From Thermospira aquatica (GTDB taxonomy: Bacteria > Spirochaetota > Brevinematia > Brevinematales > Thermospiraceae), in contig NZ_CP073355.1 of the NCBI RefSeq assembly GCF_023525255.1, positions 2,232,001-2,296,000 on the forward strand: a stretch of 64,000 nucleotides of DNA. Direction: 5' to 3'. The notes beneath the pieces are model-generated. The model ran no database searches. It was not told the origin of the DNA and was given only the letters and a program-made list of their open reading frames with translations. The position numbers and the translations under genes are program-made. How positions within the stretch are numbered: position 1 is the first letter of the stretch; the number at the start of each line of letters is the position of its first letter. Positions 10,688 through 42,432 of this stretch are shown piece after piece.

Positions 10688-12871
10688 ATGAATAGAGAAA
10701 TAGCTATCAAACGTTCTAACCTTTCACCCTCAGAACTGAAGCTTATCGAAGAGTATCTGGGTCGTTCCCCCACAGTGGAAGAAATTGGTATGTTTGGTGC
10801 CCTCTGGAGCGAACACTGTGGCTATAAAAATACGAAGCCTCTCATCAAAAAACTCCCAACGAAAGGAAAACATCTTCTCCAGGGTCCGGGGGAAAATGCA
10901 GGAGTCATACGAGTAGGAGACTACGCTGTTGCCTTTAAAATAGAAAGCCATAACCATCCTTCGGCTGTAGAGCCCTATCAGGGTGCAGCTACAGGGGTTG
11001 GTGGTATTCTTCGTGATGTATTTGCCATGGGAGCAAGGCCTGTGGCGGTTCTGGACAGTCTGCGCTTTGGAAAACCAGATTCTCCACGTACACGTTATCT
11101 CGTGAGCGGAGTGATTAAGGGCATAAGTGATTATGGAAATCGTGTGGGAATTCCTACCGTTGGCGGAGAGGTGGTTTTTGAAGACAGTTACGAAGGTAAC
11201 CCCCTCGTCAATGTAATGTGTGTGGGTATCGCCAAACCAGAAAACATCATCAAAGCTATAGCCAGAGGTGAAGGAAATCTTCTCTTCTACTACGGCTCAA
11301 AAACTGGTCGTGATGGTTTAGGTGGTGCAACTTTCGCTTCTGCAGAACTCTCCAGCGAGGGTGAGGATCAGCGCCCCTCGGTACAGGTAGGCGATGCCTT
11401 TACTGAGAAACTTATCCTTGAAGCCACGCTGGAACTCATTGAAAAAAAGCTCATTGTGGGCATCCAGGATATGGGGGCTGCCGGGATCACAAGTTCAAGT
11501 GTGGAGATGGCTGCGAGAGGCAAGAGTGGGATAGAAATCTTCATCGATAAAGTTCCTGCCCGCGCTGCCAATATGACGGCTTATGAGTTTCTCCTCTCTG
11601 AAAGTCAGGAAAGGATGCTTGCCTGTATTGAACCAGAGAAACTCCCTGAGGTTGAGAAAATCATGCAGAAATGGGAACTCGATTACGCCGTTATCGGTAA
11701 AGTCACCAACACCGAACATGTTGTCGTTTACGAAAAAGACAAAATAGTAGCCGATATTCCTATACGGTATTTGGTGGATGATGTGCCGATGTATGTGAGA
11801 GAGGTCATTCCTCCCCAATATCTCGAAAAGGCTCATGAAATACCATCCTTTGAAATCCCCCGGGATTTCACTGCTGTACTCAAGAATCTCCTCAAAGATC
11901 CTTCCCTTGCCTCCAAACGATGGGTATATAAACGCTATGATCACATGGTACAAACCAACCTTCTGGCAGAACCCATGGAGGCTGGCGGTGCCCTCTTGAG
12001 AATCAAGGGAACCACAATAGGTCTGGCAATGAGTACAGATGGAAATGGTCGTTACACCTACCTTGACCCTTATAGAGGTGGCATGCAGGCGGTTGCTGAG
12101 GCAACACGAAACCTGAGTTGTATGGGGGCAGAACCCTATGGCATCACCAACTGCCTCAACTTTGGCAATCCTGAAAAATCTCCTGTGTACTATCAAATTG
12201 CCCGGGCAATGGAAGGCATGGCCAAAGCCTGTGAGACCCTCGAAGTCCCTGTAACAGGAGGAAATGCCTCTCTTTACAATGAGACTGATGGGGAGGCTAT
12301 TTTACCAACACTCATTGTTGGTGCCGTAGGAGCTATCCCCGACTATAGGAAAGCTGTGTTTGCTCCATTTCAGCAAATAGGACATCAAATCTATCTGTTA
12401 GGACATCCGAGAGAGGGTATTGGAGGAAGCATGTTTTTGAAACACCTCACCGGAAAGATCGCCGGCGAATGCCCCTACCTCGATATCGAAGAGGAAAAAA
12501 GACTGCAACTCTGTATCCGCAAACTCATTGAAAAAGAGCTCATTGCCTCAGCTCAGGATGTTTCCGATGGAGGACTTGCATTTACACTGGCTGAGTGTGC
12601 TCTCCTGGGGAATGTTGGAATCTCTATTCAGGTAGAAACAGAGATTTCTCCCGAATCTTTTCTCTTTGGAGAGGCTCAATCCCGTATTGTTTTCTCTGCC
12701 GCTCCAGAAAAAAGCCAGGACATCAAAAAAGTATGTCAGGAATACAATCTGCCCCTGCTTCTGTTAGGAGAAACTACACTAGAGAGAAATATCATGATAC
12801 GCTACACCACGAAAGAGATATCTCTCTCTGTAGAGGAAGCAAGAAACCTTTATATGACAGAATACCTGTGA
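10688..12871 (+). CDS. purL: Phosphoribosylformylglycinamidine synthase subunit PurL
   Basis: Fourth step of purine synthesis: ATP-dependent amidation of FGAR. At 727 residues this is the small PurL type that works with separate PurS and PurQ subunits, neither of which is in the window. Visible hallmarks are LWSEHCGYKNT near 37, the substrate loop IESHNHPSAVEPYQGAATGVGG near 87-108, and two AIRS-like halves with GGNASLYNE near 527. AAAGGAG precedes the ATG. purH and purD are elsewhere in the window, so purine genes are scattered. The next gene starts 24 bases downstream. Confidence 0.96.
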   Translation: MNREIAIKRSNLSPSELKLIEEYLGRSPTVEEIGMFGALWSEHCGYKNTKPLIKKLPTKGKHLLQGPGENAGVIRVGDYAVAFKIESHNHPSAVEPYQGAATGVGGILRDVFAMGARPVAVLDSLRFGKPDSPRTRYLVSGVIKGISDYGNRVGIPTVGGEVVFEDSYEGNPLVNVMCVGIAKPENIIKAIARGEGNLLFYYGSKTGRDGLGGATFASAELSSEGEDQRPSVQVGDAFTEKLILEATLELIEKKLIVGIQDMGAAGITSSSVEMAARGKSGIEIFIDKVPARAANMTAYEFLLSESQERMLACIEPEKLPEVEKIMQKWELDYAVIGKVTNTEHVVVYEKDKIVADIPIRYLVDDVPMYVREVIPPQYLEKAHEIPSFEIPRDFTAVLKNLLKDPSLASKRWVYKRYDHMVQTNLLAEPMEAGGALLRIKGTTIGLAMSTDGNGRYTYLDPYRGGMQAVAEATRNLSCMGAEPYGITNCLNFGNPEKSPVYYQIARAMEGMAKACETLEVPVTGGNASLYNETDGEAILPTLIVGAVGAIPDYRKAVFAPFQQIGHQIYLLGHPREGIGGSMFLKHLTGKIAGECPYLDIEEEKRLQLCIRKLIEKELIASAQDVSDGGLAFTLAECALLGNVGISIQVETEISPESFLFGEAQSRIVFSAAPEKSQDIKKVCQEYNLPLLLLGETTLERNIMIRYTTKEISLSVEEARNLYMTEYL

Positions 12872-41252: not shown

Positions 41253-42230
41253 TTACTGCTGTGCTGGAGCATTGGCTCTCTGTTGAGCTTTAGCCTGCTC
41301 ATAGAGCTGAGTAATATCAGAGAGACGCTTCAACTCAAGGATTCTCTTATCGAGACGTTCCTTGGCGAGAATACCCCACTGAGCTTCATCATCGATATCC
41401 ATCTCTTCACGGATGATGGCTCTATCAAACTCCATATCCACATCCTTGAAGTAGACAACAAAATCTCCACCCTGTTCGATTTCAGGTTTGTACACGATAT
41501 AGCCATCAAAAACTACATAAGGATAACTTCTTGGATAGAGAGGAATCCTCTGAAGTACTCTATCACGAACATCATCAGTATACTCAGGATTCTGCCAGAG
41601 GAGTTTTCTCCAACCCTCAAACCATACAGAACCCATGAAGAAATCTTTGGTCTGATCCATGCGGTCGCGAAGCCGAATACCTACCTGCATCTGATAATTC
41701 AAACCATACACCCAGGTAGAAATGCTCTTGATCTGACCTACGTTAGCAAGCAGCCCCATCACGAGGGAGTTCTCCTCTCCACCCTCAGCATTCACAAACG
41801 AACCGTCATCATAGTAGGCAAAGATATCAAAAGGAGGCTTTATCAACGCCCAAGAGAGGAAACGCCCTTCAATAAAATGAATACGAGCGCCCAGAACGGT
41901 ACCTCCCTCACTCTCCCAGCGTTTACTCTTCACCGGCTTCGTATACGACAGAACATTGTTCTTTGTCGTATTGGCCGACGGAGCAAGAATAATACGCCAG
42001 TTCGAAAGAGACCAATCAGCACCGGTAAATTTTACCTCAGGATAACCGTAATCCTTTAGGTTGATGCTGTTTGTATTTTGTGCACGAATAGCCTCATCCT
42101 TTTCCACAACTTTGGCTATATTAGCCTCAAAGGTGGGAAAATGGATCAGCTTTTTCTGGATAGCACCAAACCCGGATGTAGTTATCCACAATAGACTCAG
42201 GATAGATAGAAACGCCACTCCTTTCCTCAT
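41253..42230 (-). CDS. flaA: Periplasmic flagellar sheath protein FlaA
   Basis: FlaA coats the periplasmic flagellar filament of spirochaetes. The 325-residue protein has a signal peptide at 1-23 and the FlaA family core: WRIILAPSANT near 78, a lectin-like beta sandwich with RFLSWALIKPPFDIFAY near 124 and FEGWRKLLWQNPEY near 206, and SYPYVVFDGYIVYKPE near 236. The C-terminus is charged and Gln/Ala-rich. It is monocistronic with a strong promoter and terminator. This is the best lineage marker in the window. No other flagellar genes are adjacent. Confidence 0.93.
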   Translation of the reverse strand: MRKGVAFLSILSLLWITTSGFGAIQKKLIHFPTFEANIAKVVEKDEAIRAQNTNSINLKDYGYPEVKFTGADWSLSNWRIILAPSANTTKNNVLSYTKPVKSKRWESEGGTVLGARIHFIEGRFLSWALIKPPFDIFAYYDDGSFVNAEGGEENSLVMGLLANVGQIKSISTWVYGLNYQMQVGIRLRDRMDQTKDFFMGSVWFEGWRKLLWQNPEYTDDVRDRVLQRIPLYPRSYPYVVFDGYIVYKPEIEQGGDFVVYFKDVDMEFDRAIIREEMDIDDEAQWGILAKERLDKRILELKRLSDITQLYEQAKAQQRANAPAQQ

Positions 42231-42268
42231 ATCTCCACTCCTTTAAAAAGGTATTTTGTGTCTCTTAT

Positions 42269-42296
42269 AGTATACAGGAGAATTTTCTCCTGTCAA
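42269..42296 (-). promoter_or_regulatory. flaA promoter, sigma70 type
   Basis: Minus-strand TTGACA (42296-42291) and TATACT (42274-42269) are 16 bp apart, about 39 bp before the start codon. Confidence 0.75.
42274..42293. promoter_or_regulatory. Inverted repeat filling the flaA promoter spacer, putative operator
   Basis: Perfect 9-bp arms ACAGGAGAA and TTCTCCTGT separated by two bases lie exactly between and partly over the -35 and -10 boxes. A dimeric regulator bound here would block or remodel the promoter. Confidence 0.6.
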
Positions 42297-42302
42297 CCCC
42301 TC

Positions 42303-42329
42303 TCAAGTTTTTTTCTTCTATGCCGATAC
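42303..42329 (+). promoter_or_regulatory. Sigma28 (FliA)-like promoter without a downstream gene
   Basis: TCAAGTTT (42303-42310), 11 bp, then GCCGATAC (42322-42329) follows the flagellar sigma28 pattern TAAAGTTT-N11-GCCGATAA closely. It reads away from flaA into antisense of the GerMN-like gene. The 200-bp gap to 42432 contains only this, the flaA promoter and a weak GGGTAT/ATACCC hairpin at 42349-42374. Confidence 0.45.
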
Positions 42330-42432
42330 ATCGAGAGGTGTTATTGGGTATTTTTACTATCGGATATACCCTAGCAAAAAGTTTAATCAAAATAAAAAAA
42401 ATCCCAAAAAATTTTTCACCACATTCCTATTT

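Follow-up and report, generated by a model that had tools for sequence, protein, structure and literature searches.

The sigma70-type promoter directly before the flagellar sheath gene flaA of Thermospira aquatica has its spacer filled by a perfect inverted repeat, and the exactness of this fit favours an operator. We regard the dyad as a genus-specific operator-like site on an added vegetative promoter, with a probability of roughly 0.45; a dedicated flaA regulator is possible and unproven. The evidence at present is one uncharacterised site in one genus. The window, meaning the whole 64-kb stretch analysed (G000:C1:2232001-2296000), comes from a genome of 2.5 Mb in one contig and contains the following features around the site.

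41253..42230, minus strand: flaA, periplasmic flagellar filament outer layer (sheath) protein, 325 aa (PF04620, E 4.5e-49)
42240..42251, minus strand: CCTTT-TT-AAAGG repeat overlapping the ribosome binding site (sequence read)
42269..42274, minus strand: -10 hexamer TATACT (promoter scan; invariant in the three genus species)
42274..42293, minus strand: dyad ACAGGAGAA-AA-TTCTCCTGT (sequence read; kept in G001 and G002)
42291..42296, minus strand: -35 hexamer TTGACA (promoter scan; invariant in the three genus species)
42299..42338, minus strand: possible second leader stem CCTCTCGA...TTGAGAGG, arms 42338-42331 and 42306-42299 (minimum-energy folds)
42303..42329, plus strand: sigma28-like element TCAAG...GCCGATAC, directed away from flaA and back-to-back with the sigma70 promoter (11/11 in three genus species)
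42358..42385, minus strand: predicted sigma28-like promoter TAAACT-N16-CCGATA, directed toward flaA (13 of 18 flaA upstream regions score 11-12/12)

The promoter, TTGACA-N16-TATACT, occupies positions 42296-42269 of the minus strand and scores 11/12 in the promoter scan; its hexamers are of the consensus sigma70 type, in agreement with the first-pass annotation, which had also correctly named the downstream gene as that of the flagellar sheath protein. The inverted repeat reported in the spacer was recovered by sequence reading and by an exact dyad search. It comprises 20 bases (42293-42274) centred on the spacer, and the exact pattern ACAGGAGAA-NN-TTCTCCTGT has a single occurrence in the window. 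The arms had been described as touching both hexamers: the contact is real, but it goes beyond touching, since the arms overlap the -35 hexamer by three bases (ACA) and the -10 hexamer by one (its first T). Part of the symmetry (ACA...TGT) is therefore supplied by the promoter itself. The symmetric core is GGAGA/TCTCC, with ACA and TGT separated by 14 bp; from the first base of the -35 hexamer it is 66 bp to the start codon of flaA. The dyad is not a terminator, as a T run follows it on neither strand. The genome encodes a second FlaA-family protein (L110, G000:C1:276251-277126; 39% identical), whose gene has TTCCGAT or a similar string upstream near its start codon, kept in three genus species.

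Operators placed between or over the -35 and -10 elements of sigma70 promoters are known for many repressor families. The flaA dyad overlaps its sigma70 promoter and resembles these operators in being centred on the spacer and covering parts of both hexamers; unlike them, it is a single, genus-limited site with no regulon found, and its regulator is putative. From this layout we infer the binding of a protein, its kind and the sign of its effect: most likely the dyad would serve a dimeric DNA-binding protein recognizing half-sites ACAGGRRA; once bound, this protein would mask the two hexamers and deny RNA polymerase access. Such repression would prevent a promoter of full-consensus strength from being always on. 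In this arrangement flaA would be read from two sense promoters in tandem: the consensus sigma70 promoter, about 66 bp upstream of the start codon, and an old sigma28-like one at about 155 bp, which would tie flaA to flagellar assembly.

The genus sample consists of three species (G000, the genome of the window, with G001 and G002), and a further contig scan added no genus member. TTGACA-N16-TATACT is found at the same position in all three, with invariant hexamers and 9 invariant positions in the 16-bp spacer; the dyad reads ACAGGAGAAAATTCTCCTGT in G000, ACAGGAGAAAAATCTCCTGT in G002 and ACAGGGGATTTTTTCCCTGT in G001, and all six half-sites conform to ACAGGRRA. Between G001 and G000, 6 of the 16 spacer bases and 6 dyad positions differ, and part of this change is symmetric: pair 6 has changed on both sides (A-T to G-C), while pair 7 has gone from G-C to G-T. 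Read as RNA with G-U allowed, 8 pairs are left in G001; strict DNA symmetry is limited to the 6 outer pairs. When six changes were placed randomly, 8 RNA pairs were kept in 1.6-9% of trials, depending on the transition bias assumed, and shuffling the columns of the three rows reached the observed covariation in 167 of 500 rounds; with three sequences and chance levels of this order, the retention of pairing is suggestive and falls short of proof. Beyond the genus, flaA upstream regions from 10 members of the order and 5 of the class were examined, and in none of these 15 does a comparable dyad lie at a promoter; G008 has A/T-rich repeats elsewhere. The conservation among related spirochaetes on which the first-pass annotation had made its proposal depend is seen in 3/3 genus members and in none of the 15 others. 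The promoter follows the same distribution: a sigma70 score of 12/12 (with the -10 hexamer taken as TATAMT) is seen only in the three genus members, where it co-occurs with the dyad, and in 0/15 of the other regions. Scores elsewhere are 9-10, a level matched by 25-99 of 100 shuffles.

No other promoter with the same repeat turned up in the three genus genomes, with 12 of the 14 other strict sites inspected. The strict site ACAGG-N10-CCTGT occurs 17 times in these genomes, three times at flaA, and the 12 inspected non-flaA sites are without exception inside open frames, 109-1006 codons long (the remaining two are in G001 and G002). A relaxed site, ACAGGRRA-N3-6-TYYCCTGT, is found at 14 places in 41 genomes, three of them at flaA; 9 of the other 11 are in reading frames, two of these sites in a frame that we take to be tpiA-like, and 2 of the 11 lie between frames with neither a TTGACA nor a TATA hexamer. 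The promoter-type site ACAGG-N9-12-CCTGTATA, searched in 13 genomes, is present at the three flaA genes, before an rpiB-like gene in G000 and at three other places without an intact promoter, two in long open frames and one in a 120-codon frame. The sequence preceding the rpiB-like gene (L140, which we take to be rpiB), TTGACAGGGAGAAATTTTTCCTGTATACT at G000:C1:1514147-1514175, resembles the flaA promoter at 90% over 30 bases, and its half-symmetric spacer is related to that of flaA. It was rejected as a second copy because its centre is shifted by one base and neither G001 nor G002 keeps its spacer. Ten ORFs neighbouring flaA were scanned against NCBIfam, five of them also against Pfam; 3/10 had no NCBIfam match, and none of the ten matched a DNA-binding regulator family. 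Against an operator, then, count the failure to find another promoter with the site in the three genomes, the lack of a regulator family among the ten ORFs scanned, the dependence on three related sequences, and a DNA symmetry in G001 that is weaker than its RNA pairing.

Published accounts of flaA promoters bear on the sigma70 assignment. According to parts of PMC9481697, a sigma70 promoter has been mapped in Treponema denticola for a unit that includes flaA, and sigma70 control of flaA is cited there for B. hyodysenteriae; as reported in that portion of the source, these cases count in favour of the operator on a sigma70 promoter. The likeness to Treponema denticola lies in the sigma70-type promoter for flaA expression; in the same parts of PMC9481697 that promoter heads a five-gene co-transcribed unit ending with flaA, whereas in G000 flaA is the gene directly after the sigma70 promoter, and a sigma28-like promoter lies behind the latter. 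A dyad in the Treponema denticola flaA promoter finds no mention in those parts of PMC9481697. For Leptospira interrogans, parts of the review PMC12655853 describe sigma28 motifs upstream of flaA1, which G000 resembles in having a sigma28-type element upstream of a FlaA gene and from which it differs in that this element is in tandem with a sigma70 promoter. Among the titles and abstract openings that our searches of open-licence papers brought up, we found neither a dyad in a flaA promoter nor such a flaA regulator.

The predicted sigma28-like promoter, 90 bp upstream of the sigma70 promoter, is the most widely conserved element of the region and is far better kept than the dyad; the first-pass annotation had overlooked it, as well as the opposite-strand sigma28-like element. 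TAAACT-N15/16-CCGATA scores 11-12/12 in 13 of 18 flaA upstream regions from the order and class and 10 in the other five, and equally good matches arise in 0-2 of 100 shuffles. Its boxes are invariant in the genus (7/7 and 11/11 positions), and in the five class members it is located about 52 bp before the start codon. Across the three genus genomes, TAAA-N14-18-CCGATA is no more frequent than its reversed control, so the sigma28 reading is based on position and conservation.

Given such a promoter upstream, the predicted sigma28 transcript would contain the dyad as an RNA hairpin, and the dyad could act there rather than on DNA. Placed about 45 nt ahead of the start codon, this 8-bp stem closed by a 4-nt loop might steady the leader or change how the flaA message is translated or decays. 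The explanation gains from the broader conservation of the upstream promoter and from the tolerance of G-U pairing: one pair has changed on both sides and another from G-C to G-U, and the hairpin is present in the minimum-energy fold of all three leaders as well as in the consensus fold. The folding advantage of whole leaders over shuffles is slight, however (z -2.06, -0.22, -1.72), and an Rfam scan gave three matches, all far below the gathering score. The hairpin would be absent from transcripts of the sigma70 promoter itself, and its precise match to the sigma70 spacer would have to be accidental. We consider an RNA function less likely than an operator. Two related candidates were rejected. 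The second leader stem, CCTCTC/GAGAGG, is good in G000 and G002 and absent from the G001 fold. A CsrA site in the dyad, judged against the CsrA consensus, would have its GGA inside the stem, unlike the ACAAGGATGT hairpins of flaB leaders. The latter, or near-variants of them, occur in the flaB leaders L090, L092, L093, L096, L097 and L100, where they resemble CsrA sites and are placed directly before the ribosome binding site.

Chance symmetry is an unlikely explanation, kept in play by the small sample: the promoter would give ACA and the last T of TGT, and the rest would be accidental and persist by descent in three relatives. The dyad taken alone is not very rare, since the window holds 22 perfect inverted repeats of at least 8 bp with loops of up to 8, where 30 dinucleotide shuffles average 10.4, and includes another perfect 9-bp dyad with a 2-bp centre (TGAAATCCCCCGGGATTTCA, 11851-11870). 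The half-symmetric spacer before rpiB, which G001 and G002 do not keep, also speaks for accident, as does the ease with which shuffled columns reach the observed covariation. Inside a promoter, unlike in the window at large, a perfect dyad is rare. TTGACA-N16-18-TATAMT has 88 matches in the genome against 1 for the reversed control, and among the 78 distinct ones the flaA promoter is the most palindromic, the runner-up being an A/T run; when spacers were shuffled, an arm of at least 9 bp appeared anywhere in the promoter set in 6 of 400 rounds, a figure by which chance can still equal the flaA dyad. Accident also sits poorly with G001, where all eight stem positions still pair (G-U allowed) despite the spacer differences, an outcome seldom met in the random placements. 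Within the same promoter set, TTGACATTACTGCCACTCCTATGCTATACT is one of a few strings that G000 contains in several copies, which suggests promoters of mobile elements or repeats.

The opposite strand carries a further element, TCAAG...CCGATA, which reaches the full score in the three genus flaA regions (0/200 shuffles) and 10/11 in G004. Its -35 element and that of the sigma70 promoter are 6 bp apart, back-to-back. In five genomes one flaB gene is preceded, at approximately this distance, by a similar opposite-strand element (10-11/11; L100, L092, L090, L088 and L085), so that one flaB gene has the same converging sigma28-like pair. Of the 23 regions scanned, the other six flaA and eight flaB regions have no such element at this strength. 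In G002 a 157-aa ORF is directly preceded by a near copy in sense orientation. The opposite-strand elements and the sense sigma28-like promoter converge, and the leaders of filament genes may be transcribed in antisense. An elaborate extension would make the flaA leader a three-promoter switch, with one sigma28 promoter and one dyad-masked sigma70 promoter in the sense direction, and an antisense sigma28 promoter firing through the sense sigma28 promoter; the dyad protein would shut the sigma70 promoter and could at once act on the antisense one, and by way of antisense transcription the flagellar sigma factor would restrain the filament genes that it serves. We regard this scheme as a long shot.

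The regulatory families that the first-pass annotation had invoked by analogy do not fit the geometry. MerR-type promoters have spacers of 19-20 bp, and BlaI/MecI-type operators have TACA/TGTA half-sites a few bases apart. An activator of the MerR type untwisting an over-long spacer, suggested by the position of the dyad between the two hexamers, is very improbable: the spacer is 16 bp in G000, G001 and G002, the promoter is already consensus and would need no untwisting, and a merR-like gene is lacking among the 10 neighbouring ORFs scanned. The BlaI analogy fails in turn on the half-sites, given the wide separation of ACA and TGT and the GGAGA/TCTCC core.

If the dyad is an operator, the sheath gene would be controlled separately from the flagellar core, which would offer a way into how sheath-to-core stoichiometry is set. 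The tandem sigma28/sigma70 layout relates the differing reports on flaA to one another, with sigma70 described in Treponema and Brachyspira and sigma28 in Leptospira.
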